Origin: Moorella glycerini | GTDB lineage: Bacteria; Bacillota; DSM-521; Neomoorellales; Neomoorellaceae | Assembly: GCF_009735625.1 (NCBI RefSeq) | Contig: NZ_CP046244.1 | Location: 2,728,001 to 2,792,000 of the forward strand | DNA: 64,000 nucleotides | Direction: 5' to 3' | In this document: in pieces, positions 17,491-55,836 of the stretch | How positions within the stretch are numbered: position 1 is the stretch's first letter | How the letters are laid out: every line of letters begins with the position of its first letter | Notes under the pieces: model-generated | Databases searched by the model: none | The model's input: the letters and a program-made list of their open reading frames with translations, nothing else | What the model was told of the DNA's origin: nothing | Translations under genes and position numbers: made by a program

Positions 17491-17606
17491 ACGCAAAACA
17501 ACTACGCAAAATACCCCAAATGCGAACTAAAAGCCCCTTTCCATGCCAGGGAAGGGGCCTTTTTATGGGTGATAACGCATGAAAAACAGTTCGCAAAACG
17601 ATTTTG
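17491..17606. repeat. CGCAAAA repeats: candidate recombinase binding sites / left attachment region
   Basis: CGCAAAA occurs at 17492-17498, 17505-17511 and 17592-17598, the last as half of the palindrome GCAAAACGATTTTGC (about 17593-17607). The first two lie between the tepA break and the integrase gene. Clustered short repeats next to a tyrosine-integrase gene are typical of attachment regions; the core site cannot be set without the right end. Confidence 0.4.
17533..17564. terminator. Hairpin terminator between tepA remnant and integrase
   Basis: GCCCCTTTCC (17533-17542) pairs with GGGAAGGGGC (17549-17558) and is followed by CTTTTT. A-rich sequence on the other side means it could work in both directions. 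It ends 15 bases before the integrase start. Confidence 0.8.
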
Positions 17607-18468
17607 CCGCATTTCATCTATGGCTGATGGAACAGGGTTGCACTCCCGGTACCGGGAAGGGTTACCTGCAAAACCTGCAGGATTTTGCCTCCTGGTTTGA
17701 GGGGACGAACGGCTTATTCTCCCCGGAAGCCGTTACCGGCCTTGACCTGCGCGATTACCAGCAACATTTGCTCGCTGTCAGGGGGTTGAAACCCGGGACC
17801 ATCAACAGGCGCATGGCGGCGATCAGGAAGTGGATGGCCTGGGCGGTAGAAACCGGGGAGGTGAAGGAGCCGCTGAAATTTCCAAAGCCTGTTGTAGAGA
17901 GCAGGAAAAGGCGCCGAAGGCCCTCAGCCGGCGGGAACAGAACCGCCTGTTGCGGGCCGTGGAAAGGGGCGGGAAGCCGAGGGATGTGGCCCTGATAAGG
18001 TTGATGCTTAATTCAGGCTTGCGGGTCGGGGAGGTGGTGGCTCTCAAACTGGAGGATATCGAGATCGGGGAAAGGCACGGCAAGGTGGTGGTCCGGAGCG
18101 GCAAATGAATGAAACGCCGGGAGGTGCCCCTGGGGCCGGAAACCCGTGCTGCTGTTAAAGAATGGTTGGCGGTCCACCCTGGCGTCGAATGGCTGTTTCC
18201 TAGTAAAAATGGGGCCGTCATGACCAGCCGGGCCGTCCAAAAGATGCTAAAGAAATACGCCTACCAGGCCGGCCTGCCGCTGGAGTCCGTGCATCCCCAC
18301 GTCCAGCGCCATAGTTGCGCCACCAATCTCCTTAACGCTGGCGTGGACCTGGTGAAGGTGGCCAGCATTCTTGGCCATGAAAGCCTGGATACGACGGCGG
18401 TCTACACCCGTCCTAAAGCGGCTGAACTGGAGGAGGCGATTGAGAAGGGGGAAACATTTATGCCCTGA
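17579..18468 (+). pseudogene. Tyrosine recombinase (XerC/D-type integrase), frameshifted and with an internal stop
   Basis: The first frame (from ATG 17579) has the SAM-like N-terminal domain (FHLWLMEQGCTPGTGKGYL, GLKPGTINRRMAAIRKWM). Near 17905-17915, in an A-run, the reading shifts by one base to KAPKALSRREQNRLL. The catalytic domain then carries the first Arg (SGLRVGEVV), the box HPHVQRHSCATNLL and the last LGHESLDTTAVYTRP. A TGA at 18106-18108 cuts it between GK and MKRREVPL, where the family has a sense codon. All catalytic residues remain, but one frameshift plus one nonsense codon make it inactive unless rescued. Confidence 0.88.
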
Positions 18469-22676: not shown

Positions 22677-23599
22677 CGGAAAGGAAGCTGTTATACCGCT
22701 GGCTGGCCGGAGGCCTCTTCTGGCTGCTGCTGTTCGGCGGCGCCTTTTTATCGATCCGTAGCGCCAACATCGTCCGCCTGGCCGCCGGCAAGATTGCTGC
22801 TAACGCCATTACCCGCAATCAAGAACAGGCCATCAATAGCGCCCGGGAAGTCGCCCGGGCGCTGGCCGTAGAATGGGCCACTTGGAACGGCAGTCCTGAC
22901 GATTACAACCGCCGCCTGGGAGCCTTCTTTAAAAACGCCGGCAGTTTTACCCTCCCGGACGGCATCCAGGAGGTGGTTTCCGCCTCAGTCGTATCGGTAA
23001 CCGGCCGAGAGCCGCAGTACCGGGTGCAGGTCCTGCTGCACCTGCGCCGGCTGGTGCCGGTCACCCCGGCCGAAGCCCAGGCCGATGCCCCGGTCAACGT
23101 CCCTGTAACCCAGGAAGACCTCTTGCGGTGGAAGCAGGGCGGGACGTGGGACCAGCAGAAAGCGATCCCGGTCTGGAGGGATTACCTGCTCAAGGTAGAA
23201 GTGCCGGTGCAGGTAAAAGAAAACCAAGCCCAAGCCGCCGGCCTCCCGGTGATTATCGCCAACAATCAGGGGGAAGGGGTGATTAAAGAACCTGGGTATA
23301 ACGAAAGCGCCTCCCAACCATTTATAACCTTCATCAACCAGTTCCTAAACCTCTATTATACCGGAGGGTCCCTGGTAAACTTCCTGGCGCCGGGCGCCTC
23401 GGTAACCGCCGTTGGCGGCTGGAAGCTGGAGAGTGTCGAAGAAGTGCTTGTAGACAACAGCGCCAATCCCGCCAGGGCCTGCGTCCGGGCAACGATATCC
23501 GCGCCCGGAGCCGGGCGCCTAGTGCAAAGAATTTTTCTTAAAATCAAGATAGAAAGGGGGAGCTATCTGGTAGAGGACCTGAGCGCCCAGCCGCAGTGA
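22676..23599 (+). CDS. TcpC-like conjugation protein (VirB8-type), apparent ACG start
   Basis: About 307 residues: a short cytoplasmic tail, one TM helix (GGLFWLLLFGGAFLSI, about residues 12-27), then an outer region with two NTF2-like domains, the second showing FINQFLNLYYTGGSLVNFLAP and LEDLSAQ-type ending, as in TcpC of Clostridium conjugative plasmids. The coding reads clearly back to LTERKLLYRW, but no ATG, GTG or TTG is available there. The codon 7 bases after the ribosome site GGGGGTG is ACG (22676-22678), overlapping the upstream stop as TAACG where TAATG is usual. The first standard codon (GTG 22973) would delete the TM helix. Confidence 0.75.
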   Translation, partial: TERKLLYRWLAGGLFWLLLFGGAFLSIRSANIVRLAAGKIAANAITRNQEQAINSAREVARALAVEWATWNGSPDDYNRRLGAFFKNAGSFTLPDGIQEVVSASVVSVTGREPQYRVQVLLHLRRLVPVTPAEAQADAPVNVPVTQEDLLRWKQGGTWDQQKAIPVWRDYLLKVEVPVQVKENQAQAAGLPVIIANNQGEGVIKEPGYNESASQPFITFINQFLNLYYTGGSLVNFLAPGASVTAVGGWKLESVEEVLVDNSANPARACVRATISAPGAGRLVQRIFLKIKIERGSYLVEDLSAQPQ

Positions 23600-24028: not shown

Positions 24029-24043
24029 GAGGTGGCTGCTATT

Positions 24044-24430
24044 ATGGAGAAACAAGAAACACGCCTTTTCAAAAGTTATAAGTCGCTATTCCACATCAGG
24101 TTCAAGATCCATAACATCGGCGACCGCACCCTGCCGCGGGGGCTATCCCTGGAAACCCTGGCCATGTTCGCGGTACTCTACTTGCCTCTCTGGCCTTTGG
24201 GCCGCCTGCTGTACCCGGCCCACCCCTGGATCGGGGCGATAATCGCCGCCGGGGCGGCGGCCGGGTTGCTATCCCAGTCCGATCCCCAGGGCAAGTTCTT
24301 GCCCCTGTTTATCCTGGGCCTGGTTGAATACGTGGCCAGGCCCAAAACCACCGACTACTCCGGCCGGGCCATCGCCCGCCGCCGGCGCCAACGCCTGGAG
24401 TGGGAAGTAATGGAGGTAGACGACAAGTGA
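24044..24430 (+). CDS. TcpE-family conjugation membrane protein
   Basis: About 128 residues. Positive N-terminal tail, two hydrophobic segments (LETLAMFAVLYLPLWPLG and WIGAIIAAGAAAGLLS), then ARPKTTDYSGRAIARRRRQRLEW. TcpE-family proteins of Tcp-type transfer systems have this two-helix form and help place the VirB4 ATPase at the membrane. ATG 24044 lies 8 bases after GAGGTGG. The stop overlaps the GTG of the VirB4 gene (GTGA). Confidence 0.75.
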   Translation: MEKQETRLFKSYKSLFHIRFKIHNIGDRTLPRGLSLETLAMFAVLYLPLWPLGRLLYPAHPWIGAIIAAGAAAGLLSQSDPQGKFLPLFILGLVEYVARPKTTDYSGRAIARRRRQRLEWEVMEVDDK

Positions 24431-26850
24431 AATTCCCTCTCATCGCCTTTAAGAACAACATCGTCTTCAACAACCAGGGCGAAGCATACGCCGTCTACCG
24501 CCTCAAAGGCGAGGCCTACAACCACCTGCCCTTGGCGGAAAGGCAAATAGTTATCAAACGCCTGGAAGAGGTCTTTTACGGCTATGAGGGTAAGGGCCAG
24601 ATCCTCCTGCTCTGCGAGGAATTGCGTCTGGACGAAGGCGGTTATTTGGCAGCTGCCGGCGTTTCTTACGATCTTCCCCGGGAAGTGGCCCTGGAGGCCT
24701 CCCGCCACGCCCGGTCCGTGCGCCAGGCTTTAAGCTACGGCGCCCGCCGCCGGCGCCGTTACCTGGTCTTGCAGCTGCGCCTGGAACCCCAGCTGGATGA
24801 TATCAAAACCCTGCTGGCTGAAGCCCGCGACCTGGCCGTGGGGACTTTCCTGCGGTCGGAAAAGTGGTTGCTCTCGCCCCGGCGCCTGCAGGAGGCCCTG
24901 GAAGCGGAAAAAGAATTATACCACCGCATCCGGAACATCACCGCCGGCCGCGCCGATTTCGGCGATCTGGATTTCATCATCCGCCGCAACACACGGCGGG
25001 TAGGGATTCTCTCGCCGCCCCTGCCGTCCCGCAACGCCGGCCGCTTCACCCCGGCCCTGATCAGCGCCTTCAGCGACGGCTGCCTTTTGGAAGAACACCC
25101 AAGTTACATCGCCATCACCGAAGGCAGTGACGAAACCCATTACCAGGTTTTCATCACCTTTCCCGATCTGCCCAAAAGCATACCGGAGATAGGAGCCGAA
25201 TGGCTGGCCAGCCTAGATATCAACGAAGCGGCCATTGATGCCGTGGTCCATTTCCGGATTACCCGGCCCTTCAAGGCTAAAAAGGCAACAGAAAGCCGGA
25301 GGCGCTTTCTGAGAGGCCAGATTGAAGAAGCTTTACGGGGCCGGGATGAACCAAGCTTAGACGAAGAATACGGCCTGACCGAGGGACGCTTCCTGGAAAG
25401 CAAAATCCAGGCCGGCCAGCCCTTAGCGGCCATAGCCGTCACCCTGGCCGTGGCCGGTAAAGACCTGAAAGAAGTCCGGGCCACTGCGGCAAAGACGATA
25501 GAAAGGCACACCTCTTCCGGCTACCGCGCCGTCCGGCCGGTAGGCGACCAGATCAAGTGCCTGTACTCCTTCCTGCCCGGCGCCCCGCCGGCCGCGTCGT
25601 TAATCGAGTGCGACCCCGGCTTCATCGCCGCCGCCGGTCCCCATATCTCTTTGGAAACGGGCGACGGTAAGGGTTTTTTCCTGGGTTGGTCAGGAGCCGC
25701 CCCGGTCTGGTGGCGGCCTGGCTACGCCGCCCGGGAATTGGGCCGTTCCAACGCCGTCTTTATCACCGGCGGACTGGGCGGGGGTAAGAGTATGACCATC
25801 AAGACCATGGGCTATTTCATCCGCCTAGCCGGCGGCGTGTTGTTCGTCATCGACCCCAAAAAGAACGAATATCGAGCATACGAGCGCCTGTTTCCTATCA
25901 AGCGTATAGACCTTTCTCCTGGCGGCGACCGGGAATTGAACCCCTTCATGCTGGCTGCCGACGAGCGCCGCGCCAAGGGGATTGCCCTGGACTTTTTAAG
26001 CATTGCTTTAAACCTTCGTGACGACAACGACGTGCGCCGGGTGGCCGTATCCCAGGCGGTGGAGAGAGTAGCTACCAGGCCGCCGGCCGAGCGCAACCTC
26101 CAGGCCTGCCTGGAAGAATTGAACCGGATGGCCAGGGAGAAGGCCCATCCCCAGGTTGCCCGGGAGGCCGGCCAGTGCGCCCTGCTTTTAGAATCCCTCC
26201 GGGACGGTTCCCTGGGCCACCTGGTATTCGGCAAGGAAAAGGAAAACGAGATCGCCCCGGTCACGGTGGTCAGCCTTCAGGGCCTGCCTCTGCCACGCAC
26301 CGCCCAGAACCTCCTGGCCGGCCGGATTACCGAAAGCGAGCGCCAGGGCTTAGGTATGCTCTACCTGGCGGCGGCCATGGCCAGGGAGGTGGCCTTCTCC
26401 CTACCGGCACATATCATAAAAGGTCAGATTTTTGATGAGGTTTGGATGCTGGCCGGCATCTCTGAAGGCGCCCGCCTGCTGGACGAACTGATCCGCATGG
26501 GGGCCAGAAGCTATAACGCCATCCCCATCCTGGCCACCCAGAACGCCAGCGACGTGGCCGGCATTCAGACGATTAAAAACAACGTCAGCTACGTACTATG
26601 CTTCCGGGCGCAGGATAAAAGCGAGATACGTAGTAATATAGAGCTGTTGGGCGCCGATGTAGAAGAAGAGGAAGGGAAGAAAGGGGCCGGCCTGGCCAAT
26701 CTCTTCCGTTCCCTGGAGAGCGGCTGGTGCCTCATGAAGGACGCCCTGGGCCGTATCGGCCAGGTATACATCGACCCCCGGCCGGAATACCTCTTGCAGG
26801 TGTTCGATACCACGCCAGGCAAGGAAGGGGAGGTAACAAAAAGTGGTTGA
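24427..26850 (+). CDS. VirB4/TcpF-like conjugation ATPase
   Basis: An 807-residue cytoplasmic ATPase that would power assembly or transfer in a type IV secretion system. The N-terminal half is the VirB4/TraC pilus-assembly domain; the C-terminal half is a RecA-like domain with Walker A GGLGGGKS at about residue 450 and Walker B GQIFDEVWML at about 667, followed by ATQNASDV. Start GTG 24427 (VKFPLIAF) overlaps the TcpE stop; an upstream frame start is inside tcpE. The stop overlaps the AAA+ gene start. No HUH relaxase or FtsK-type coupling gene is near it. Confidence 0.92.
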   Translation: MKFPLIAFKNNIVFNNQGEAYAVYRLKGEAYNHLPLAERQIVIKRLEEVFYGYEGKGQILLLCEELRLDEGGYLAAAGVSYDLPREVALEASRHARSVRQALSYGARRRRRYLVLQLRLEPQLDDIKTLLAEARDLAVGTFLRSEKWLLSPRRLQEALEAEKELYHRIRNITAGRADFGDLDFIIRRNTRRVGILSPPLPSRNAGRFTPALISAFSDGCLLEEHPSYIAITEGSDETHYQVFITFPDLPKSIPEIGAEWLASLDINEAAIDAVVHFRITRPFKAKKATESRRRFLRGQIEEALRGRDEPSLDEEYGLTEGRFLESKIQAGQPLAAIAVTLAVAGKDLKEVRATAAKTIERHTSSGYRAVRPVGDQIKCLYSFLPGAPPAASLIECDPGFIAAAGPHISLETGDGKGFFLGWSGAAPVWWRPGYAARELGRSNAVFITGGLGGGKSMTIKTMGYFIRLAGGVLFVIDPKKNEYRAYERLFPIKRIDLSPGGDRELNPFMLAADERRAKGIALDFLSIALNLRDDNDVRRVAVSQAVERVATRPPAERNLQACLEELNRMAREKAHPQVAREAGQCALLLESLRDGSLGHLVFGKEKENEIAPVTVVSLQGLPLPRTAQNLLAGRITESERQGLGMLYLAAAMAREVAFSLPAHIIKGQIFDEVWMLAGISEGARLLDELIRMGARSYNAIPILATQNASDVAGIQTIKNNVSYVLCFRAQDKSEIRSNIELLGADVEEEEGKKGAGLANLFRSLESGWCLMKDALGRIGQVYIDPRPEYLLQVFDTTPGKEGEVTKSG

Positions 26851-28090
26851 GCTTAAGGGTATTATCCTCGATTTCCGCCAGGCGGTGGCGGCCCAGAACT
26901 TAAGCAGGGTCGCCTTTGACGCCGCCCTGACGGTGGGCGTCCTCGTCCTCCTGGCCGAGGTGGCGGCCAATTACAAAAAGCGCCAGTACATAAAAAACGC
27001 CCTGGTCAGCCTCATCGCCTTTATCATTACCTACGCCTTTATCCGCTATTTCCCAGCCAGGGGCTCCGAATTCGAGCTGTTGACCATGCTCCTGGGGCTC
27101 TGGTACGCAGCCCAGGTTATCTACCGTTTCGCCAGCCGCGCCTTAAAGATATACAGCGAAGCCTTTAGCGGCGGCTGGCACGCCTTCAGGCAGGCGATAA
27201 ATGGTAAGAGAGCCTACCAGCATAGTTACCGGCAGACTTACCAGGCTTACCAGGAAGCCAGCCAGGGCAACAACCAGGAAAAAGAAGCTTCCACCGCAGG
27301 ACCACCACCTGGGGTGGAATACCTGCCGCCCCGGCGCCCGGACCCCAGGGCCTTCGACGGCCTCATCGGTCTGGATAAAGCAGTTGACGCCATTAAAACG
27401 GCCCTGGAACTACCATTAAAACAGCCGGAAAAGATCCGGGAGTACAACCTGGAATTGCCGCGGGGAATCCTGCTCTACGGCCCTCCCGGCACCGGCAAAA
27501 CGAGTTTCGCCCGGGCGGCGGCCAGGTACTTCGGCTGCTCCTTCTACGCCGTTAACGCCTCTTCTCTTATCGGGCGTTACGTCGGCACCAGCGAGGCCAA
27601 TTTGCGCAACCTCTTCGCCCACGCCCGCCGTCACCGGCCTGCCGTGATCTTTTTCGACGAGATCGACGCCATCGGCCGCCGCCGCGACGACAGCAACTTG
27701 AACCGCGCCTCGGACATCCTTCTGCAGCTTCTCCTGGGTGAACTAGACGGTTTTGCCAGCCGGGAAGGGATCTTCATCATTGCCGCCACCAACCGCACCG
27801 ACGTGCTGGATGAGGCCCTGATGCGGCCGGGACGCCTGGACCAGAAAATCGAGCTGCCCCTGCCTGGCGCCCGCGCCCGGCGGCAGCTCTTTGAGGTTTA
27901 CCTCCGGAACAGGCCCACCGAATTAAACGAAGCCGACTACCAGACTGTGGTGGCCAGGACGGAAGGAGCTTCCGCCGCTGATATCAAGGCCATCTGCGAC
28001 ATGGCCGCCCTGGCGGCCTCCCGCGTCCGGGCCAGGATCGACTGCGCTTACCTGATGGAAGCCATCGACGAATTAAGGGGGAAGGGTTAA
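26843..28090 (+). CDS. Membrane-anchored AAA+ ATPase in the conjugation operon
   Basis: A 415-residue protein. Residues about 20-100 have two or three hydrophobic segments, so it is membrane-bound; residues 160-400 are a classic AAA+ domain with Walker A GPPGTGKT at about 213, Walker B VIFFDEIDAIGRR, sensor IIAATNRTDVLD, and the box RPGRLDQKIELPLP. It ends near the lid domain, with no FtsH-type zinc protease domain. Start GTG 26843 overlaps the VirB4 stop by 8 bases. It may remodel or disassemble the transfer complex; this use is not one I know from Tcp systems. Confidence 0.88.
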   Translation: MVELKGIILDFRQAVAAQNLSRVAFDAALTVGVLVLLAEVAANYKKRQYIKNALVSLIAFIITYAFIRYFPARGSEFELLTMLLGLWYAAQVIYRFASRALKIYSEAFSGGWHAFRQAINGKRAYQHSYRQTYQAYQEASQGNNQEKEASTAGPPPGVEYLPPRRPDPRAFDGLIGLDKAVDAIKTALELPLKQPEKIREYNLELPRGILLYGPPGTGKTSFARAAARYFGCSFYAVNASSLIGRYVGTSEANLRNLFAHARRHRPAVIFFDEIDAIGRRRDDSNLNRASDILLQLLLGELDGFASREGIFIIAATNRTDVLDEALMRPGRLDQKIELPLPGARARRQLFEVYLRNRPTELNEADYQTVVARTEGASAADIKAICDMAALAASRVRARIDCAYLMEAIDELRGKG

Positions 28091-28091
28091 A

Positions 28092-28640
28092 ATGCGGGGC
28101 AGCACGCACCTCTTCAGCGGCTTGGCGGCGTTTTCCCTGCTCGGCATGAATTTGCCAGGGCTGGGACTGGCCGCCCTGGGAGCCTTGCTTCCGGATATAG
28201 ACCAGCCGGGTAGTATGATAAGCCGCAAGGTTACCGGAGTTCCCTTTGGCCGGATAGGTCGGGGGTTAGTAGGGATTACGATACTGGGAGTCTGGCATCA
28301 GACCAGGCTTTCTTTGTTGCTACCGGTAGGGATCACCTTTGTGGCGCTGGCGTTTCTTCCCCACCGGGGGATAACGCATTCACTGTTGGGCCTGGTGTTG
28401 GCCTGGCTAGCGGTAAAGGGGCTGGGCTGGCCGGAGGCGCCTTTTCTTACTGGCTACGGCATCCACCTGGCGGAAGACTTGTTGACACCTTCTGGTATAC
28501 CTCTGCTTTACCCCTGGCAGGAGCGTATGCGCGTACCGTTAGTGGAAACGGGAGGAATATTGGATAGGGTTCTCGGCCTGGCAGCCATGGCAATCTTCTT
28601 GATAGCTGCATGGAAATATGTACCGGTTTTATTACATTGA
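28092..28640 (+). CDS. YdjM/DUF457-family membrane metal-dependent hydrolase
   Basis: A 182-residue inner-membrane protein with about four hydrophobic segments. The metal ligands of the family appear as STHLFSGL (His6), PDIDQPGS, HRGITHSLLG and HLAEDLLTPSG. Proteins of this family are widespread in Bacillota and their substrate is mostly unknown. It begins one base after the AAA+ stop, so it is in the same transcript, between the AAA+ and VirB6-like genes. Confidence 0.85.
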   Translation: MRGSTHLFSGLAAFSLLGMNLPGLGLAALGALLPDIDQPGSMISRKVTGVPFGRIGRGLVGITILGVWHQTRLSLLLPVGITFVALAFLPHRGITHSLLGLVLAWLAVKGLGWPEAPFLTGYGIHLAEDLLTPSGIPLLYPWQERMRVPLVETGGILDRVLGLAAMAIFLIAAWKYVPVLLH

Positions 28641-28672: not shown

Positions 28673-30130
28673 ATGGCTAAACATCTTGAAAAATTGTGCA
28701 TGGTACTTTTAACCCTTTTACTTGCCTTCAATGTTTTGATGCCCGCCGCTCTGGCGGGCATCGGCGATCAACCGGCCAAAGATTGGAACCTCCAGGGCGA
28801 CATCGAAGCCGAAAAGGCAATTGAAGGACAGATGTTCAATATCGCCAGCATCACCTTTCTGAACCCGGCTACGACGGCTACGGCCGTCACCGCAGTCGGA
28901 CCTTTCGGGCTCCTGACCGTAGGCGCCGGGGCGGCCGCTGCCGGCCTGGCAGAAATCGCCAGGCCCGAAAACGCCATCTGGGAGAACTGGCCCCTGGGCA
29001 GATACGTTTTTTACCACTACGCACCGGATAAATACCTGGGCATGGTGCCGACCGCCCAGTATGCCACCAGCGCCATCGGCGACATGATCGCCAATTTAAT
29101 ATTTTCTCTGAGTAAATCTATAACTCGAACTTCCATCAACGTCATGGTGCTGGCTTTTCACACCGATATCGTCAGCGGCATGATCCCGTGGGTGTCCCGG
29201 GGTGTGGCCGATATCTTCACTAACCCCCAGAACCAGCTGGCGCCGGTTTTGCTCATATTAGGCATGAGCCTGCTACTGATTTACAGCGTCTTTAAGCTCT
29301 TACGCGGCCAGGCCGTTTCCGTTCTGGGGGCGCTCTTAATTGCCCTTTTAGGCGTAGGGGGCGTTTTCTTTTTTACCGCCAACGCCGAAAAACTGATCGG
29401 CGACTTCACCCGGTTCACCGATAGCACCGCCGGCCTGTTCCTGGGCACCATCAGCAGCTATACCGTTAAGGGCCAGAATGTAAACATCAGCAATCCAATC
29501 GACCGGGGCCTGGTGGTCGCCGGGCAAACGGCCTGGAATACAATCATCACCCGGCCCTGGGCTGTAACCATGTTCGGCACGGCCGACGAAAGCAAGCTCA
29601 AGCTCACCCAGGATGAATACGACAAAATGGATAAAAGTTCCTTCCCGGCCGAAAGCCTGGCCAAGATCCAGCCGGGTATGCGCATCGACACCTTGTTCCT
29701 GGGCTGTGGCGGCGACGCCCGGGACGCCGTGGCCGATATACTGGGTCGGCCGAATAAACGTTACCTGTTGGTAGTTAGGGAAGACATCGACCACGGCCTT
29801 CATCCCGGTACCATGATCGGTTTCAACCCCGCCAATACCCAAAACCATATTGAAACGGCCCTGCTGACCCTCCTGCCGACCATCGGGTTTGCCATATTGA
29901 TCGGCCTGGTAGGCCTCAGCATCATCGTCTGCCAGGCCGTCCTGGCGGCCCTGCTGCTGATGCTGCCCCTGGCGTTATTCGCTCTAATGATCCCGGAAAC
30001 CGGTTGGACCCTGGCCGGCCGCTACTTCCGCACCTTGATCGGCTTCTTCTCTGTTAAGCTCATTTATGGCGTCTACCTGTCCCTGGTCCTGGTAGTGGCC
30101 ACCAGCTTTACGAAGGCGGTGATTGGCTGA
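28673..30130 (+). CDS. VirB6/TrbL-like polytopic membrane channel protein
   Basis: A 485-residue protein with a signal-like N-terminus (LEKLCMVLLTLLLAFNVLMP) and about six further hydrophobic segments in two clusters (residues 165-245 and 400-480). Between them lies a soluble loop with CGGDARDAV. This layout matches the TrbL/VirB6/TcpH inner-membrane channel of type IV secretion systems. The TGA shares its last base with the ATG of the next gene. Confidence 0.75.
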   Translation: MAKHLEKLCMVLLTLLLAFNVLMPAALAGIGDQPAKDWNLQGDIEAEKAIEGQMFNIASITFLNPATTATAVTAVGPFGLLTVGAGAAAAGLAEIARPENAIWENWPLGRYVFYHYAPDKYLGMVPTAQYATSAIGDMIANLIFSLSKSITRTSINVMVLAFHTDIVSGMIPWVSRGVADIFTNPQNQLAPVLLILGMSLLLIYSVFKLLRGQAVSVLGALLIALLGVGGVFFFTANAEKLIGDFTRFTDSTAGLFLGTISSYTVKGQNVNISNPIDRGLVVAGQTAWNTIITRPWAVTMFGTADESKLKLTQDEYDKMDKSSFPAESLAKIQPGMRIDTLFLGCGGDARDAVADILGRPNKRYLLVVREDIDHGLHPGTMIGFNPANTQNHIETALLTLLPTIGFAILIGLVGLSIIVCQAVLAALLLMLPLALFALMIPETGWTLAGRYFRTLIGFFSVKLIYGVYLSLVLVVATSFTKAVIG

Positions 30131-32095: not shown

Positions 32096-32365
32096 CTACT
32101 TGAGCTTGATTTCGATCTTGGCGTCTAGCGCCCTGGCGACCTTTTTTAAGAAACGAAGGGAGGGATTATAGGTTCCGCTTTCCAATCTGGCAATGGCTGA
32201 TTGGCGCGTTCCTACTTTACGCGCCAGTTCAGCCTGGCTGATGCCTTTGAGTTTTCGTTGTTCAATGATAGACTTGACGAGTTGGTATTCCGGTTCCAGG
32301 TCATCATAGGCGTGGCGAAAGGCTGGTTCCTTCATCAGTTTGTTTTTGAATTCCTCCCACTTCAT
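32096..32365 (-). CDS. higA: HigA-type XRE antitoxin
   Basis: An 89-residue helix-turn-helix protein (GISQAELARKVGTRQSAIARLESG, about residues 39-62) with an N-terminal toxin-contact helix region (FRHAYDDLEPEYQLVKSII). The start overlaps the end of the toxin gene by 4 bases; as usual for higBA the toxin gene comes first. Confidence 0.88.
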   Translation of the reverse strand: MKWEEFKNKLMKEPAFRHAYDDLEPEYQLVKSIIEQRKLKGISQAELARKVGTRQSAIARLESGTYNPSLRFLKKVARALDAKIEIKLK

Positions 32366-32715
32366 TTAACTCCACCCGTCCTTTGCTTGTAATCCTTCAT
32401 CCTGGCAAGAGCAGTTTTAAGTTCCTTTTGTGGTGCTTTTGAGGTTTTCTTGGAAAAAGCATGGACTACGACCAAAGTGTTACCCGAGATGAAAAATAAT
32501 AACCTGAACGCTTGGCCTCCGAAGGGAACCCGTAATTCCCAGAGGTCGTCGGCCATATGCCGGACATAGGGCATCCCGATTGAAGGGCCATACTCTTTAA
32601 GAAGGTCAATGGCCCGGGCTATTTTCGCTTGCTCGCCGGGTTTTAGCGTCGCGATAAAGTCAACCACCGGCTGGTTGCCCGAAGCGCTTTCGTATAACTC
32701 GATTTCCCACAGCAT
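32362..32715 (-). CDS. higB: HigB/RelE-type toxin (Gp49-like family)
   Basis: A 117-residue RelE-fold mRNA interferase. I use ATG 32715 (MLWEIELYE), since the 22 codons further upstream cover an AT-rich promoter. Conserved parts are FIATLKPGEQAKIARAIDLL, YVRHMADDLWELRVPFGGQAFRLLFF and HAFSKKTSKAPQKEL. It is the first gene of a pair with the HigA antitoxin (4-base overlap). Confidence 0.88.
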   Translation of the reverse strand: MLWEIELYESASGNQPVVDFIATLKPGEQAKIARAIDLLKEYGPSIGMPYVRHMADDLWELRVPFGGQAFRLLFFISGNTLVVVHAFSKKTSKAPQKELKTALARMKDYKQRTGGVK

Positions 32716-32821
32716 AAAACAATCCTCAATTGATATAACATATGTGTTATATATTGTAGTCCAAAATCTTTTTGTCGTCAACTTGAAACCTAGCAGGCCG
32801 GTAGTAATTACAACCTCGGAG

Positions 32822-32862: not shown

Positions 32863-33894
32863 ATGCTTATGGGTCCCGTGACCGCAACAGCAGCAATCAA
32901 AACAGCTCAGAAAGCCGGCAAATTGGTCACGTCGGCCCGGGCCAGGGAAGGTCTGGCCGTAAAGATTGAATACCTGGCGATAGGCATCTTTTTTCTTATT
33001 CCAGCTCTGCTTATATCTCTGGTCCTAATATTTTTCCTGGCCCTTGGAATGGGTGATCAGGGCAAAACCACCGGCTTCCGGTCTGGCGCCCCGACGGCAT
33101 TTGCCGTAGCCGATATACCGGCCCAGTACCTGCCCATTTTCTTAAAGGCCCAAGAGCGGTACGGAGTATCCTGGGCGATACTCGCGGCCATCGCCAAAAT
33201 AGAATCGGGGTTTGGAAGCGACATGAAAACTTCCAGCGCTGGGGCTATCGGTTTCATGCAGTTCATGCCGGCCACCTGGGAGCAGTACAAGCAGGATGGC
33301 GACGGGGACGGCAGGATGGACCCCTATAACCCCTACGACGCCATCTTCGCCGCCGCCAATATGCTTAAAGCCAACGGCTTCGCCACCGACCCCCGTAGAG
33401 CCATCTTCGCCTATAACCACGCCAATTGGTACGTAGATATGGTGATGAGCCAGGCGGCAGCCTACGCCTCCACCATGTTGCCGGTAGGCCAAGGCGTTTG
33501 GCCCCTCCTGGGCCAATATAAAACAATCACCGACGGCTACGGCATGCGCTGGCACCCGATTCTAAAAAAATACAGCTTTCACGACGGCATAGATCTACCG
33601 GCGCCGGAAGGCACGCCAGTATTTGCAATGCAAGATGGAAGGGTGCTCTGGGATAGGGAGAACGGCGCTTATGGCCTTTGCGTAATCCTGGACCACGGCG
33701 GCCTTAAGACCATGTACGGCCACCTGGCGGATGTAGCTGTAAGAAAAGGGGAAAAGGTGAAGGCCGGCCAGGTCATCGGCTACATAGGCAATACCGGCCT
33801 CTCCACCGGCCCCCACCTGCATTTCAGCGTTTACATCAACGGCCAGCCGGCCAACCCGGAAGAGTGGCTGAAGATACCTTCAGGAAATAACTGA
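32863..33894 (+). CDS. Conjugation cell-wall hydrolase: lytic transglycosylase plus M23 peptidase
   Basis: A 343-residue membrane-anchored enzyme that opens peptidoglycan for the transfer channel (VirB1/TcpG-like role). One TM helix at about 40-65; an SLT domain at about 85-190 (catalytic Glu in AIAKIESGFG, then GAIGFMQFMPATW and FAYNHANWYV); an M23 LytM domain at about 215-335 with zinc ligands in SFHDGIDLPAP and GPHLHFSVY. The two-domain form is typical of Gram-positive conjugative elements. ATG 32863 or 32869 both fit the ribosome site. Confidence 0.92.
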   Translation: MLMGPVTATAAIKTAQKAGKLVTSARAREGLAVKIEYLAIGIFFLIPALLISLVLIFFLALGMGDQGKTTGFRSGAPTAFAVADIPAQYLPIFLKAQERYGVSWAILAAIAKIESGFGSDMKTSSAGAIGFMQFMPATWEQYKQDGDGDGRMDPYNPYDAIFAAANMLKANGFATDPRRAIFAYNHANWYVDMVMSQAAAYASTMLPVGQGVWPLLGQYKTITDGYGMRWHPILKKYSFHDGIDLPAPEGTPVFAMQDGRVLWDRENGAYGLCVILDHGGLKTMYGHLADVAVRKGEKVKAGQVIGYIGNTGLSTGPHLHFSVYINGQPANPEEWLKIPSGNN

Positions 33895-41058: not shown

Positions 41059-41070
41059 AGCCGTGTGACT

Positions 41071-41102
41071 GCCGCCCTACCCGGGGCGGCTTTTTCTTTT
41101 TT
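41071..41102 (+). terminator. Intrinsic terminator just before the first CpaF gene
   Basis: GCCGCCC (41071-41077) pairs with GGGCGGC (41084-41090), followed by TTTTTCTTTTTT. The ribosome site GGGAGGTGG starts at 41105. The long open frame of the CpaF gene passes through this hairpin, but that part is unlikely to be translated. Confidence 0.85.
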
Positions 41103-41118
41103 ATGGGAGGTGGTTTTT

Positions 41119-42468
41119 ATTCCGCTGGAATTTGCCAGTCACGACTGGCTGCAGGAAATTGAGATGCAGAAGGAGGCGATAATCGAAGAAGTCGCCAGAC
41201 AGCTCACGCGGGAGCACCCGGAGCTGTTTTCTGGTGGCACCCTGGACGGCGGCGCCAGGCTGGATGCTGAAGCGCTGGTGAAAAACGCTGTCATTACCCG
41301 TAAAGACCTTACCCCGGATGAAAAAGATGACGCTGTGAGTGTCATAATGGGGCAGATAACGGGCTACGGACCCCTGCGAGACTTTTTTACCGGCCCTGGA
41401 GCGGAAGAAATAACAGAGGTTGCCGTGAACCCCACGTCCCAAGGACCGCGGGTCTTCTACGGCATGCGCGGCAGGCAGTATCCGGCGTCCGGCGTCTACT
41501 TCAAGACCAACGAAGAAGTCACCAGGTTCGCTCAGAAAATCTGCGAGGACGCCGGCCGGCCCTTTACTGCCGATTCACCCATCGTTGACGCCTGGCTGCG
41601 GGACGGGTCGAGACTTTCGGTCATAGGTTTTAAGGCCAGCCCTCTCGGCACGGCCCTGACCATAAGGAAGTCGCCCCTGACGCGGCTGCCGCTGCCGCTG
41701 TCCGTTTTGGTCAAAAGCGGCATGATGCCGCAGTTCGCTGCCGAACTTCTGGTTGACCTGATAGTGGAGGGCCACGCCAACCTGGGGGTGTTCGGGCGCA
41801 CCGACTCCGGCAAGACGACGGTCCTGCGGAGCCTGGGCGAACAAATCGCAATTGACGAGAGGATGATCATAGGTGAGACCAGCTTCGAGCTTTCCCTGCC
41901 TAGCCTTCCTAACTGCGTCAACATGGTGGAAGTCACCTACGGCGGCCAGAAGCTGGTGGACCTGGCGAGGATCTGCGAGGTGATAAACCGTTCCAACCCG
42001 GACCGGGCTATAGTCGGCGAGATCCGCGGCGGGGAGGTGGTGGCCGCATCTGAAATCGCTGAGTCCATCAGCGGCGGCTTCTGGACCACGGGCCACGCCG
42101 GGGGAGTGGACGAGCTGCGCTCCCGCCTGCCCAAGATGTTTTCCCGCGGCGGGATGCCCCTGCCGAAGGAGTACGTGGACGAGCAGCTCCGGGCCATGTT
42201 CCACTTCCTGGTATTCCTGGACAAGAGCTATGACGGGAAGCGTACCCTCATGAGCATCGTGGAGGTGACGGCTGAAGGCTACCGGACCATTCTCCGGTTT
42301 GACGAAGGGGAGTTTGCGAGGACGCGGGGGAAAGTCCGGCGGTGGGTGTATGAGGCGCCCGTGACGCCGGAGAGGCTGGGCCGGTTGGCCTTCCGCGGAG
42401 CGGAGGTTAAGCCGGAATACGAGCAGGTGCTTGAGAAGCACTTCTATGCAGAAGGAGGCGAGGCGTAA
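41119..42468 (+). CDS. tadA: CpaF/TadA secretion ATPase, copy 1, apparent ATT start
   Basis: About 449 residues. Cytoplasmic ATPase that powers Tad pilus assembly. N-terminal helical region, then the family core: Walker A GRTDSGKTT at about 226-234, Asp box IIGETSFEL, Walker B AIVGEIRGGEV, His box TTGHAGGVDE. The ribosome site GGGAGGTGG (41105-41113) points to ATT at 41119-41121 (IPLEFASHDW). The in-frame GTG at 41110 lies inside that ribosome site, and all earlier starts lie before the terminator. ATT starts are rare. The next gene begins two bases after the stop. Confidence 0.88.
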   Translation: MPLEFASHDWLQEIEMQKEAIIEEVARQLTREHPELFSGGTLDGGARLDAEALVKNAVITRKDLTPDEKDDAVSVIMGQITGYGPLRDFFTGPGAEEITEVAVNPTSQGPRVFYGMRGRQYPASGVYFKTNEEVTRFAQKICEDAGRPFTADSPIVDAWLRDGSRLSVIGFKASPLGTALTIRKSPLTRLPLPLSVLVKSGMMPQFAAELLVDLIVEGHANLGVFGRTDSGKTTVLRSLGEQIAIDERMIIGETSFELSLPSLPNCVNMVEVTYGGQKLVDLARICEVINRSNPDRAIVGEIRGGEVVAASEIAESISGGFWTTGHAGGVDELRSRLPKMFSRGGMPLPKEYVDEQLRAMFHFLVFLDKSYDGKRTLMSIVEVTAEGYRTILRFDEGEFARTRGKVRRWVYEAPVTPERLGRLAFRGAEVKPEYEQVLEKHFYAEGGEA

Positions 42469-42470
42469 GG

Positions 42471-43250
42471 TTGTTAGTGATAGCTCTTTTCCTGTCGTTG
42501 TTCCTGATGTTTTACTTTCTTACCGGCGGCGAGGTTCCCGAAAAGGCGGGTCTTAAGAAAATAGCCAGGGACAGGCTTTTGCCGGGGGCTTCCGCAGCGG
42601 TGTTTTTCCTCCTGGGTTCTGTTATGTGCCGCACTTCCCTGGGTGGTATCCCCTGGGCCGTCCTGGGGTGGTATTTGCCCGGGTGGGTTACAGGGTTTGT
42701 AGAAGAGCGCCGCCGGGCGAGGCTCAGGGAATTAGTGAAGAGCTTTGTGGTTTCCGCCGCGGGCATGTTTGCTGCCGGGCAGACGACCGCGGAGGTGGTA
42801 AAAGTTATGGCCGACCGGATGCCCGAGCCTTTTGCCGCGGAATTCCAGGATATGCTGGGCCAGCGCGAGCTGGCCGATAAACCCTATTCAAAGTCCTTCG
42901 GCAACCTGGCGAAGAAGTACGGCCTGCCCGAGTTCGAGGCCGTGGCCGCCGTGCTGGCCGCCGCCGACCGGGCCGGGGGGCCTAATGCAGCGGCCAAAGG
43001 ATTGAAGCGCCTGGGGGCCGCCCTGCAGCAGCGCGATCGGCTGCTGGCCGAAAGGCGCAAAGAGACCTTTGAGCCGAAGGTGGCCGCCGGGGTGGTGATA
43101 GTCCTGCTCTTCCTGGGCTTTTTGGGCGGTGTCCTTCTGTGGCCCGGCTACTTCGAGGGCGGCGGCAGGCTGGTCCTGACTGCGGCTTCGGCGATAATAG
43201 TCGGCATGGTCTTCCTGGCCGTCAAAGCCGGGAGCCCGGACGCGATGTAG
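42471..43250 (+). CDS. tadB: TadB-like pilus inner-membrane protein, copy 1
   Basis: A 259-residue type II secretion F-domain protein. Two N-terminal hydrophobic segments, a cytoplasmic helical domain (ELVKSFVVSAAGMFAAGQTTAEVVKVMADRM reads as the T2SF fold in shorter pieces), and two C-terminal helices. It forms the pilus assembly platform with TadC. TTG 42471 starts 2 bases after the CpaF stop. Compare the second copy at 54179. Confidence 0.8.
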   Translation: MLVIALFLSLFLMFYFLTGGEVPEKAGLKKIARDRLLPGASAAVFFLLGSVMCRTSLGGIPWAVLGWYLPGWVTGFVEERRRARLRELVKSFVVSAAGMFAAGQTTAEVVKVMADRMPEPFAAEFQDMLGQRELADKPYSKSFGNLAKKYGLPEFEAVAAVLAAADRAGGPNAAAKGLKRLGAALQQRDRLLAERRKETFEPKVAAGVVIVLLFLGFLGGVLLWPGYFEGGGRLVLTAASAIIVGMVFLAVKAGSPDAM

Positions 43251-43263
43251 AGGGGGGAATGGC

Positions 43264-44076
43264 ATGATGCTTGCGCCTGCGGGCCTTTTTGTGACGACTT
43301 TTGTCTTTCTCTATCTGCTCCTCTGTCCCGACAGGGAAGGCGTGTCGCTCGCGGCGGGCACCGTCGATTCCGTGAGGAAGAGATTGGAGAAAAGCCTGAT
43401 AACCCCGGACAGGGCGGCGCGCCTGGAAGCCGCGGGCAGGACGGTGCGGGAGCTCATGCGGAGCGGCGCTTTGATCGGCGCCGGGTTAGCCCTCCTGGGC
43501 TTCCTCATCGGGGTTAAGTTTTTAGGGGTGTTCGCCCTGGTGCCGGCCGCGGTCCTTTTTCTCCTGGGCATGTTTCTGGCTGCGAATGCCGTGGATACCG
43601 AGTTCCGCCGCTGGCAGGCCAAAGTGCTGGCGGGGGTACCCAACATATTCAACTTCGTTCCCGTCTTCCTGGAAACCGGTGCGGTCACTCCCAGGGAGGC
43701 CCTGTTCCTTTCCCTGCCTTTCATTTCCGAACCCCTGCGGGGCCTGCTGGAAAACGCCCTGAGCCGCATAGCCAGGAAGGCCGAGGTGCGGACGGCCATG
43801 GATGAGCTGGCGGGGAAGGTGAAGCATCCCCTGGTGGATGCTGTGGCCTTTCGGTTGTCTTCGGCTTGGGACGTGCGGGTGGACGCCACTATCTTCGACG
43901 ACCTGGCCGGGCAGCTGGCTCTGCTCCGGGAAGAAGCGGCAGGCAGGGTCACGGCGGCCCGGGCTTCCTTCTTCGCCCTGGTGGCCGTACTGGGACTTCT
44001 GGGCGCGGTCCTGGTTTTCGGCTACCCGGCCGTGAAGTTCATGGCCCAGAAGATCGCCGGGGGGTTCGGGATATGA
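43264..44076 (+). CDS. tadC: TadC-like pilus inner-membrane protein, copy 1
   Basis: A 270-residue F-domain protein. Hydrophobic segments at about 5-22, 70-110 and 235-260; a central amphipathic part with FVPVFLETGAVTPREAL and LVDAVAFRLSSAWDVRV. It partners TadB in the platform. ATG 43264 follows AGAGGGGGGAATGGC. The small TM gene at 44098 follows 21 bases later. Confidence 0.75.
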   Translation: MMLAPAGLFVTTFVFLYLLLCPDREGVSLAAGTVDSVRKRLEKSLITPDRAARLEAAGRTVRELMRSGALIGAGLALLGFLIGVKFLGVFALVPAAVLFLLGMFLAANAVDTEFRRWQAKVLAGVPNIFNFVPVFLETGAVTPREALFLSLPFISEPLRGLLENALSRIARKAEVRTAMDELAGKVKHPLVDAVAFRLSSAWDVRVDATIFDDLAGQLALLREEAAGRVTAARASFFALVAVLGLLGAVLVFGYPAVKFMAQKIAGGFGI

Positions 44077-52114: not shown

Positions 52115-52867
52115 TTGGCTTTGCGTTTTCCAATTCTAAAACGGACGTGGCCCTACCTCCTGGCTATAGCGGTCGGCCTAGTGGTGGCGGCTTTCAGCTT
52201 CAAGGCCCTCAAAGGGGAGGCCTCCTCCCAGGCAGGGGTTAAGCTCCCGGTGGCAGCCCGCGACCTGCCGCCGTATACCCTGGTCCAGGCGCAGGATTTG
52301 AGCTGGAGCACTTTTCCGTCCGAGCTGCCGGGTGCGGTAAAAAAACCGGCCGAGGCCGTTGGCAAGGTCCTGTCCAGGACGGTGCCGAAAGACTACCCCC
52401 TGCGAGCCGGCGACCTTAAAGACCCGGGGAGCCTAGACGTGCAGCTAGTATCTGTCAATGTTGATTCTTCCCGCCTGGGCGGGGCCAGGCCGGGCGACCT
52501 GGTGGACGTTTACTGGATACAGCCCGCCGAGAAGACCGCCTGGACGCCGGGGACGGGAGCCACCCTGGTTGCGCAGGACGCCAGGGTGGTGAGCGTCCTG
52601 GACAAAAACGGCCAGCCGGTCGACTCTGGCCAGGGCCTGGTGGCGGCGGCCGTCCAGGGGACGGCGGCCAGGGCCCCGGCCATCGCGGTGCTGGCTGTGA
52701 GGGCTGGAGAAGTGAGGGCCATAATTCCCGGCGCGGCGCAGAACAACACGTGCATAGCCCTGGTGAGGAAGTTCAAGGAAGGAGGTGGGCAGGTTGGCGC
52801 TCTCGCTGGCGGACAGGGCGATAGCCCGCCTCAAGCTACTGCTGGGGCCGCCGGCCCCGGGAAGTAA
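52115..52867 (+). CDS. cpaB: CpaB/RcpC-like SAF-domain protein, copy 2
   Basis: A 250-residue protein with one N-terminal TM helix (YLLAIAVGLVVAAFSF), an SAF domain (LPVAARDLPPYTLVQAQDL, RTVPKDYPLRAGDL) and a second beta domain (VNVDSSRLGGARPGDLVDVY). It ends in a Gly/Ala/Pro tail that overlaps the next gene. TTG 52115 follows GAGGTGGTGATGG. It is diverged from copy 1 but has the same domain order. Confidence 0.85.
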   Translation: MALRFPILKRTWPYLLAIAVGLVVAAFSFKALKGEASSQAGVKLPVAARDLPPYTLVQAQDLSWSTFPSELPGAVKKPAEAVGKVLSRTVPKDYPLRAGDLKDPGSLDVQLVSVNVDSSRLGGARPGDLVDVYWIQPAEKTAWTPGTGATLVAQDARVVSVLDKNGQPVDSGQGLVAAAVQGTAARAPAIAVLAVRAGEVRAIIPGAAQNNTCIALVRKFKEGGGQVGALAGGQGDSPPQATAGAAGPGK

Positions 52868-54182
52868 TGTTGTTGAGGAACCCCGGGAGGAAGTTTTGAC
52901 CCTGGACCAGGCGGCAGAGTACGTTCAACAGGCCCTGGCCCGGGGGCCGGAGGGAGAGGTGGCCCGCAAGCAGGATATACTGCACCGGGCCATGGCCGGG
53001 GAGCCGGGGATGCAACTGGAGGCCCGGGCCCTCATCCGGCAGGCCCTGGAGGCGGGCAGGAAGGAAGTGGCGGGGTTTTCCCTGGAAGAGGCGGCCCGCC
53101 TTATTTATGCCCGCGTTTGGGGGCTGGACGTGGTGGAGGATTTATACCGCGACCCGGAAGTGAACGAGATCCAGGTCAACGGGCCGGGGGATATCTTTGT
53201 AGACCGCCTGGGCAGGCATGAGCGGGTCAACATGAGCTTTGACACTCCCGAAAGGGTGGAGGCCGTCATCAAGCGCATGATCCTGCACGACATGGGCGCT
53301 TCCCTGGACAGGTCCAATCCCATGGTAGAGAGCATACGAAAGGACGGCTCCCGCCTTACGGCTACCTGCTACCCGGTGACGGAGACCTGGACTTTCGTGT
53401 TGAGGAAGCACCACACAGTGGATATGAGCGTGGAAAACCTGGAGAAGCTGGGGACTCTTAACCGCCAGGTGTGGGAAGTTTTGCGGCTCCTGGCGTTGGG
53501 CAGGACGAACATCCTTTTTTCCGGGAACGTCCGCAGCGGCAAGACATCCCTGATGCGGAAGCTGGTGGGCGAACTGCCCGAAGGTTTGCGGTTAGTGGTA
53601 ATAGGCAAAGACCTGGAGTTGAGGCTCAGGCGGGAGTACCCCGGCCGCAATATTGTGGAGTTCGAGTCCCATCCCGAGGTAGGGGCGGGGATGCCGGAAA
53701 TCTTCGAGAACGCTTTGCGTGAATCTCCCGACGTGATCCTGGTGGAGGAGTTCCGGGGAAAAGGCGAAGCCGTCGAGGCCATACGGGCCTGCACCCGCGG
53801 GCATCCCGGGTCAATGGGCACGGCGCATTTTAATTCTCCTCAGGAAGCCGTAGAGGGTACCGCCATGATGCTGCAGGAGGAAGGTCTTAATATATCCTTC
53901 CAGATGGCGAAGGTAAGAGTGGCTACCGCTTTTAATGTGGTTGTCCAGATGCTCAACGACAGCATGAGGGGCGTCAAAAAACTCATCAGTATTACGGAGA
54001 TAGGCGTCCGCAACGAAGAAGTGGTTTATACCGATCTGGTGCGTTGGGAGCCCGCGGGCCGGGACTACCTGGGGGAAGGCGACTGGAAGCTGGTCAATCC
54101 CCCGAGCCCGGAGCTGCGGTTTAAGACGTTCCGCTACGGCGTCACGGACGACGACTGGAGAAGGGTGGGGTTCGAGTTATGA
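52794..54182 (+). CDS. tadA: CpaF/TadA secretion ATPase, copy 2
   Basis: About 462 residues, family core with Walker A SGNVRSGKTS at about residue 240, VVIGKDLELRL, Walker B ILVEEFRGKGEA and the His box SMGTAHFNSPQEA. The N-terminal 110 residues are helical. I prefer TTG 52794, which lies 7 bases after AGGAGGTGG, over GTG 52785. It overlaps the CpaB gene by 74 bases and the TadB gene by 4, so all are coupled. It differs strongly from copy 1, so the two serve separate platforms. Confidence 0.9.
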   Translation: MALSLADRAIARLKLLLGPPAPGSNVVEEPREEVLTLDQAAEYVQQALARGPEGEVARKQDILHRAMAGEPGMQLEARALIRQALEAGRKEVAGFSLEEAARLIYARVWGLDVVEDLYRDPEVNEIQVNGPGDIFVDRLGRHERVNMSFDTPERVEAVIKRMILHDMGASLDRSNPMVESIRKDGSRLTATCYPVTETWTFVLRKHHTVDMSVENLEKLGTLNRQVWEVLRLLALGRTNILFSGNVRSGKTSLMRKLVGELPEGLRLVVIGKDLELRLRREYPGRNIVEFESHPEVGAGMPEIFENALRESPDVILVEEFRGKGEAVEAIRACTRGHPGSMGTAHFNSPQEAVEGTAMMLQEEGLNISFQMAKVRVATAFNVVVQMLNDSMRGVKKLISITEIGVRNEEVVYTDLVRWEPAGRDYLGEGDWKLVNPPSPELRFKTFRYGVTDDDWRRVGFEL

Positions 54183-55063
54183 CCCGCCTTTCTGTCCTGG
54201 GCGTTGCTTTCGGGACCGGCCTGGCGGCCGGGGCGGGAATGTTGCTTCTGCTCCGGGTGATAAGCTACCGGAAGGCAGCCCGCCGGCTTTCTTCCCTCAT
54301 CCCCCGGGAGTCCCTGGATGCCTGGGCCGAAGCCACCGAGCAAAAGCTTGAAGCCGCCGGGGTCAGGTTCCGCGGCCGCTTCTACACGGCAGGCGTCACC
54401 CTGGCCGTGCTGGCTTCTCTCTACGTTGGGCTGTTCGTGTTCAGGAACTTCATCGCCGCGCTTCTCATGGCCACGGCGGCCGTCCTCCTGCCCGACCAGT
54501 TCATACTCCAACGCATGGAAAGCCGGAAGCTCAAGATGCTGGAGCAGATGGCCACGGCTGTGAGGATTTTTGCCGCCGAGTTCACCCAGACGCCGCAGAT
54601 CGGGAAAGCCCTGGGAGAGGTGGCCGCGCGGGTGCCGGACCCCCTGGGGGCGGTCTTCAGGAGCGCTTACCGTGACGTCTCTTTGGGTAAAGCCCTGGAC
54701 GACGTGCTTTCGGACCTGATGGTACGCCTGGACTTCGGGCCGGGCAGGATGTTCGTCCAACTGCTCATGGCCGCCCGCAGGGATTCTTCGGTGGCGCCGC
54801 TGTTTGGCGAGCTGGTGACCAGGCTGGCCGTCCAGCTTGAGCTGATCAGAAAGAACAGGAGCGAGCTTTACGCCGACCGGTTGCTTTCCTGGATCATGCT
54901 TTTTGCCATGGTGCCTGCCTATCTGGCGATGCGGGCCACGGTGCCGGAAACTTACGAATTTCTGGCGGATACCGTGGCCGGGAGAATAGTGGTGGCCCTC
55001 TGTTTTCTTTCCGTCATAGTCTGGGTGGTCATGGACCGCCTTATGGGGAGGGTGGAAGTATGA
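54179..55063 (+). CDS. tadB: TadB-like pilus inner-membrane protein, copy 2
   Basis: A 294-residue F-domain protein with hydrophobic segments at about 5-25, 78-110, 235-255 and 268-288 and the T2SF core between (KMLEQMATAVRIFAAEF, QIGKALGEVAARVPD). ATG 54179 overlaps the CpaF stop (ATGA). Partner of the TadC gene that follows, again with a 4-base overlap. Confidence 0.82.
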   Translation: MTRLSVLGVAFGTGLAAGAGMLLLLRVISYRKAARRLSSLIPRESLDAWAEATEQKLEAAGVRFRGRFYTAGVTLAVLASLYVGLFVFRNFIAALLMATAAVLLPDQFILQRMESRKLKMLEQMATAVRIFAAEFTQTPQIGKALGEVAARVPDPLGAVFRSAYRDVSLGKALDDVLSDLMVRLDFGPGRMFVQLLMAARRDSSVAPLFGELVTRLAVQLELIRKNRSELYADRLLSWIMLFAMVPAYLAMRATVPETYEFLADTVAGRIVVALCFLSVIVWVVMDRLMGRVEV

Positions 55064-55836
55064 AGGCCGGGCCGCTTCTCCTGGCCGCCGCCGGCCTTGG
55101 GCTGGCCGCCGGGGCCTGGGTGCTCATGGCCGTAAAGCTGCTTTCTTCCCCCAGCCGGCAGGACCGTGCAAAGGAGACGGGAAAAAAAAGCAGGACCAGG
55201 AAACCGCCTGATCCCCGCAGTACCAGGGAAACCGCGGCCGTCCTGGCCGGGATGGCGGGAATGCTCCTCCTGGGATGGGGCGGCAGTCCGTGGGTGCTGG
55301 CCTTATTGGCCACCCTGGGAGGGGCCGTCGGGCTGGGTCTTACCAGGATGATGGCCAGGCTCAAGGAGGGCAGCGACAGGGCCGCCGGTATCCGGGAACT
55401 GACGGTGCTTTTTGAGGCGGTGGAGCTTTACATGCGGGCGGGTTACGCCCTGCCGCAGGCCATGCGGGCGGCCGCTCTTTTGACCCCGCGCCTGCGGAAG
55501 GCCGTGGGGGAGTGCCTGGCCTGCTGGCCTGCTGGTCCCAGGCGTGCCCTGGAGGTGCTTAGGCAAAACCTGAACATACCGGAGGCCGAGATCCTGGTGT
55601 CCCTGCTGGGCCAGGTGGACCGGGTGGGCTTAAAAAATTTGGAAGGGGTGATGCAGAGGGAAGCGTACAACCTGGAGCGCCTGCGGCAGCTCGCCATGGA
55701 AGTGAACATCGCCAGGAGGCCGCTGTACTTCACCCTGTACCGTGCCCTGCCCCTGGCGGCTGCCGTGGGGCTCATCGTGGGACCCTTGCTCTACCGCGTA
55801 GCCGGGGTATTGAAGGATGCAATTTTCTTCTTTTAG
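55060..55836 (+). CDS. tadC: TadC-like pilus inner-membrane protein, copy 2
   Basis: A 258-residue protein: N-terminal helix, basic stretch (KETGKKSRTRKPPDPRSTRE), paired helices near 62-95, then ELYMRAGYALPQAMRAAAL and a C-terminal helix. ATG 55060 overlaps the TadB stop. The next frame begins 8 bases after its TAG. Confidence 0.75.
   Translation: MKAGPLLLAAAGLGLAAGAWVLMAVKLLSSPSRQDRAKETGKKSRTRKPPDPRSTRETAAVLAGMAGMLLLGWGGSPWVLALLATLGGAVGLGLTRMMARLKEGSDRAAGIRELTVLFEAVELYMRAGYALPQAMRAAALLTPRLRKAVGECLACWPAGPRRALEVLRQNLNIPEAEILVSLLGQVDRVGLKNLEGVMQREAYNLERLRQLAMEVNIARRPLYFTLYRALPLAAAVGLIVGPLLYRVAGVLKDAIFFF

Follow-up and report, generated by a model that had tools for sequence, protein, structure and literature searches.

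A membrane-anchored AAA ATPase without a protease domain is encoded within the T4SS operon of Moorella glycerini described here, and its relatives form a rare accessory clade that is common to distinct T4SSs, with a putative motor function. Monoderm T4SS assembly and energetics are poorly known, T4SS substrates must unfold for the channel, and a motor outside the standard ATPase set may operate in some conjugation machines. We propose, at slightly less than even odds (roughly 45%), that the protein is a membrane-tethered, protease-less hexamer of the classical AAA type, an accessory part of the T4SS that unfolds or extracts proteins, most likely substrate proteins. If so, a dedicated membrane AAA motor in several unrelated T4SS operons would imply a physical unfolding or extraction step, for which a specific gene is now at hand for testing, and one ATPase would be added to the set of VirD4, VirB4 and VirB11. 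The sharing of the clade among distinct T4SSs goes somewhat past the initial annotation, which had seen a remodelling ATPase embedded in the transfer operon.

The window, that is the whole stretch of 64,000 nucleotides analysed, contains the AAA gene as an ORF of 415 codons with a GTG start. The overlap of 8 bases with virB4 noted at first reading is exact (26843-26850), and a GGAGGT sequence lies 8 nt 5' of the GTG, inside the 3' end of virB4; overlap and GGAGG are both retained in three related genomes. Pfam places PF00004 at residues 209-340 (E=5e-39, far beyond chance) and AAA_lid_3 at residues 364-394. Neither a Pfam match to peptidase M41 nor an HExxH motif is found in the protein. Walker A (GPPGTGKT), Walker B (VIFFDEID), sensor 1 (ATNR), a DGF motif, an RPGR motif with two arginine fingers, and a Y-V-G pore loop 1 are all present. 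The key motif residues are invariant across nine family members; the pore-loop aromatic is lost in some members of the clade. With Walker A and B, sensor 1 and the second region of homology in place, the protein is a predicted classical AAA ATPase.

An AlphaFold2 model of the monomer, for which other AAA domains supplied the alignment, shows helices at residues 20-42, 47-69 and 75-142, N-terminal to a well predicted core; pLDDT in the membrane part is roughly 60-73. By hydropathy, two segments reach the threshold in the window protein, versus three in its orthologues. Positive charges follow helix 1 (NYKKRQ) and helix 3, and the loop after helix 2 is near-neutral, a pattern that fits a predicted topology of three membrane passes with a cytosolic AAA domain. 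The order first described, membrane helices and then an AAA module with no protease domain, is thus borne out. Compared with PDB entries, the core aligns best with PAN (3whk; Z 29.4, 242 residues, rmsd 2.1) and with FtsH (2ce7; Z 28.1, 244 residues, rmsd 2.4).

Table 1. Features of the transfer operon and of the AAA gene, in window coordinates.
Feature	Position	Strand	Evidence and remarks
TcpC (VirB8-like)	22973..23599	+	Pfam TcpC 5.8e-19
TcpE (VirB3-like)	24032..24430	+	Pfam TcpE 3.2e-14
VirB4 (TcpF-like) ATPase, 8 nt overlap with AAA gene	24400..26850	+	AAA_10 1.4e-42; TcpF 1.7e-42
Ribosome-binding site GGAGGT of AAA gene, inside virB4 3' end	26829..26834	+	Sequence; GGAGG kept in 3 relatives
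AAA ATPase, membrane-anchored, without protease domain, 415 aa	26843..28090	+	Pfam AAA PF00004 and AAA_lid_3, predicted model, PDB comparison, clade
Predicted membrane segments of AAA protein (about residues 20-42, 47-69, 75-97)	26900..27133	+	Hydropathy, predicted helices; end of third segment is an estimate
AAA ATPase core	27467..27862	+	Pfam PF00004, residues 209-340
YdjM-like membrane protein	28092..28640	+	Pfam YdjM 4.6e-24; in only 2 of 4 related operons
VirB6-like membrane protein (CD3337/EF1877 family)	28673..30130	+	NCBIfam 3.6e-13, under curated cut-off
CwlT-like cell wall hydrolase (SLT and M23)	32863..33894	+

The operon runs from a conserved secreted protein through TcpC, a small membrane protein (possibly TcpD), TcpE, VirB4, the AAA protein, YdjM, the VirB6-like protein and a variable protein to CwlT. 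The operon contains no ORF that could be called a pilin with certainty, and no relaxase was identified in the window's element; a VirD4 coupling protein is encoded downstream, around 83 kb on the scale of the window and hence beyond it (locus L164). The upstream tyrosine recombinase is split into a SAM-like N part (17579-17995) and a catalytic part (18109-18468) and is a single ORF of 284-298 aa in related elements; the window's integrase is probably broken. The whole resembles an integrative conjugative element, perhaps one in decay. Further downstream (L018:1319-3497), a large serine recombinase lies beside a short ORF resembling part of a ClpP/TepA-type gene and adjoining a SpoIIIE-like gene, possibly a mobile-element insertion site. 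The same element carries two Tad-type pilus gene sets (T2SSE ATPase with TadB/TadC-like proteins; 41065-44076 and 52785-55836), accompanied by CpaE/ParA-like genes, which are also found after the T4SS in L054, L055, L059, L063 and L064. YdjM-like membrane proteins occur in or near T4SS elements of differing types, in the window and at L054:14987-15487, L159:16175-16720 and L167:7862-8506.

Is the AAA gene a lasting member of this operon? It is present in four of the 11 genomes of the genus, at 89-92% identity and in all four at the VirB4-AAA-VirB6 position, with YdjM intervening between AAA and VirB6 in only two. Its dN/dS of 0.13-0.19 lies within the range of CwlT (0.10-0.18) and slightly above that of VirB6 (0.09-0.13); VirB4 gives 0.05-0.10. 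Given these ratios and the constant position, the gene is under purifying selection as part of the window's element. Random insertion is ruled out by conservation in the four genomes together with recurrence in other T4SSs. The same genus also harbors T4SSs with VirB4 at 50-51% identity that have no AAA gene (in G006, and at an additional locus in G001).

A tree built from 48 AAA domains groups all 14 rows of the family together, supported at 100/100 against FtsH, PAN, CDC48 and other AAA proteins; Msp1, Vps4, katanin and SpoVK are absent from the reference set, so the family is claimed as separate from the tested families only. On these sequences, the family appears as a single clade of proteins with N-terminal hydrophobic segments and an AAA domain without protease. 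The label "FtsH-like" given initially therefore holds for topology and AAA motifs, but not for descent of the AAA domain, which belongs to a clade separate from those of FtsH, PAN and CDC48. Membership in FtsH is rejected (no M41 or HExxH, TIGR01241 at 220.6 bits against a cut-off of 600, position outside the FtsH clade), as is membership in PAN (224.7 bits against 500, outside the archaeal PAN-like clade) and in CDC48 (separate clade), even though the best phmmer matches of the protein are AFG2/CDC48 chains.

At least four further lineages have members of the same clade within T4SS or conjugation loci of other types: in two cases the gene lies between virB4 and virB6, and in one it follows relaxase and coupling-protein genes. 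The gene orders are VirB4-AAA-VirB6-CwlT-ParA in G132, VirB4-AAA-VirB6 in G084, VirB2-like pilins-AAA-PrgI-VirB4-VirB6 in G017, VirB4-VirB6-C39 peptidase-small membrane protein-(toxin-antitoxin)-AAA-CpaE in G355, with a pilin-like protein near the AAA gene, and NikA/MobC-relaxase-VirD4-double AAA in G410, whose membrane AAA protein has two tandem AAA domains (L158:5141-7045). In G132, G084 and G355, VirB6 was assigned from position, size and membrane segments, plus a weak T4SS_pilin match in G084, with no full Pfam VirB6 match. In G133, a 3-kb contig carries the C-terminal fragment of a VirB4 and then a RusA-like gene ahead of the AAA gene; in the main VirB4 locus of that genome a RusA-like gene likewise follows VirB4. 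T4SS or conjugation genes thus adjoin the AAA gene in the window's genus, G017, G084, G132, G355 and G410, and partially in G133. The contig of G256 is too short to judge the neighbourhood, and no T4SS adjoins the clade members of G055, G391 and G068. Among ten independent lineages, five carry a VirB4 gene no more than about 10 kb from the AAA gene (binomial p of about 4e-9 at a chance rate of 0.7% and 6e-5 at 5%, both background rates being estimates). The VirB4s of the distant AAA-bearing loci are of the TraG P-loop type, quite unlike that of the window. By gene content, the AAA protein is a rare candidate accessory part common to unrelated T4SSs, and its assignment to the transfer operon at first reading is upheld.

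Two further observations concern these loci. A toxin-antitoxin-like pair in the window's operon (32096-32781) is homologous (44% and 39%) to genes immediately upstream of the G355 AAA gene (L064:8066-8706), in an unrelated T4SS locus. At L061:2071-2853, an ORF fuses a copy of the AAA protein's membrane-spanning part to the C-terminal fragment of a VirB4 (63% to that genome's own VirB4) and looks like a recombination product.

How general is this component? The gene is missing beside the closest other TcpF-type VirB4s at seven loci (G352 at 69%, G218 54%, G006 51%, G001 50%, G332 39%, G242 36% and G280 30% identity), which rules out a general Tcp component. TraG P-loop-type VirB4 was detected in 69 of 398 genomes, and none of 20 such loci inspected, some on short contigs, has the AAA gene. 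All 27 other VirB4 loci inspected, among them those of the nearest TcpF-type relatives, thus lack the gene, so that T4SSs of this kind would work without the protein. The survey of related loci is accordingly mixed: the gene recurs in the genus operons and in other T4SS types, but not at the seven more distant TcpF/TcpE-type loci. Its total absence from related loci, named beforehand as grounds for dismissing it as a random insertion, is not what was found, as all four close relatives contain it and T4SS or conjugation loci of other types contain distant homologues.

A profile of the family was searched against the 398 genomes of the phylum without regard to gene context, and a gap separates family members (E of 4e-84 or better) from FtsH (about 1e-71 and weaker). 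No members beyond those known were found in the classes of G132 and G084; the class of G355 yielded G410. Viral contigs gave one weak match and six pattern matches, none of them judged a family member. The plasmid collection gave generic AAA matches only, none covering 80% of the query, and the two plasmid regions inspected (a haloarchaeal plasmid and Paenibacillus pSC2) have no annotated T4SS gene nearby. In a family-alignment survey of contigs from named organisms, FtsH, PAN and CDC48-like proteins overwhelmed the matches (best identity 46%), and the survey served for reference sequences only.

How might such a protein act? Six subunits would form a ring on the cytoplasmic face of the membrane, adjoining VirB4 and VirB6, and pore loops would grip a protein so that ATP-driven threading unfolds or extracts the client without degrading it. 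The most likely clients would be T4SS substrates, e.g. the relaxase or proteins transferred along with it, whose passage through the channel requires unfolding. Two points favour this choice: conjugative substrates have to unfold (PMC5826034), and the AAA gene of G410 is paired with relaxase and VirD4 genes. Complete motifs, the predicted helices with a PAN/FtsH-like core, a conserved place in the operon, purifying selection, the clade's repeated occurrence in T4SS and conjugation loci of different types, and the reported lack of VirB11 in monoderm T4SSs (PMC12857230) count for a T4SS part; the 27 VirB4 loci without the gene, the clade members of G055, G391 and G068, the pore-loop aromatic that is not universal, and the window element's lack of an identified relaxase count against it.

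The main rival, which we consider improbable though worth weighing, is that the protein dislocates membrane proteins or controls their quality, pulling pilin-like or VirB6/TcpE subunits from the membrane for assembly or recycling, like Msp1 or an FtsH minus proteolysis. Its membrane anchoring would suit this task, and the positions of the gene adjoining VirB6 and pilins favour it: directly before VirB6 in three lineages, beside VirB2-like pilins in G017 and near the pilin-like protein of G355. In G410, however, the gene follows relaxase and VirD4 genes on a 16.9-kb contig in which no VirB4-like or pilin-like ORF was seen, and the window's operon has no certain pilin. Recycling of pilus subunits or opening of the channel, the two roles suggested at the outset, are possible.

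Could the gene merely ride in the operon as mobile-element cargo, e.g. as a defence or counter-defence AAA protein of the IetA kind or a host-take-over factor? PADLOC IetA profiles do match the AAA domain, up to 1e-40 in single-AAA members, presence is patchy, and some clade members are solitary near a CRISPR locus or insertion sequences. Yet cargo would not be expected to sit between virB4 and virB6, overlapping virB4, in distinct systems. Membership in IetA is also rejected: NF042959, the anti-phage ATPase model of NCBIfam, gives 123.5 bits against a cut-off of 510, and the neighbours are VirB4 and YdjM/VirB6 instead of a subtilisin-like protease (subtilase) partner. We regard the cargo explanation as unlikely. 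Still less likely is a partnership with a host protease or host FtsH, as mixed hexamer or adaptor, that regulates VirB proteins through proteolysis. FtsH-like topology would allow it, but the AAA domain shares about 40% identity with the FtsH encoded in its own genome and falls in a separate clade.

Returning to an accessory unfoldase of the T4SS, how does the protein compare with known machines? Like FtsH, it has N-terminal membrane helices followed by a classical AAA module; unlike FtsH, it lacks the protease. Like PAN and CDC48/p97, it has the AAA fold and motifs, with PAN 3whk the best structure match (Z tied with FtsH within about 1); unlike them, it is membrane-anchored and, except in G410, has a single AAA domain. 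The resemblance to IetA is confined to the AAA core, and membrane helices and T4SS context set the window protein apart from it. VirB11 belongs to another fold family and has no membrane helices, in contrast to the classical AAA protein of the window. The two may nevertheless be alike as extra hexameric ATPases, VirB11 being located at the VirB4 base of diderm T4SSs and reported missing from monoderm T4SSs (PMC12857230). No T4SS ATPases other than VirD4, VirB4 and VirB11 are named in that 2025 review, and a word search of it for "FtsH" returns nothing, in line with the initial view that the gene is not a standard Tcp or VirB part. Among the open-licence papers searched, no FtsH-like AAA protein in a T4SS operon is described, and the family is apparently undescribed. 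One could go further and see in it an additional energy-providing ATPase of certain T4SSs of the phylum, one that takes the place left vacant by VirB11 at the VirB4/VirB6 platform and unfolds substrates or dislocates pilins, an extension that we hold to be doubtful.

Like the Tcp/MPF_FA apparatus of pCW3, Tn916 and ICEBs1, the window has TcpC, TcpE, VirB4, VirB6 and CwlT homologues in order; unlike the other such loci inspected, it has an AAA gene between virB4 and virB6, which the T4SS review (PMC12857230) does not mention. The nearest functional analogy is the chloroplast Ycf2-FtsHi import motor, likewise a protease-less membrane AAA assembly proposed to drive translocation beside a membrane channel. 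FtsHi proteins are reported to join FtsH12 in a complex proposed as the motor (PMC8042743), a precedent that also speaks for the FtsH partnership considered above. There, the complex is mixed and its FtsHi members are inactive paralogues of FtsH, whereas the window's AAA protein lies outside the FtsH clade.
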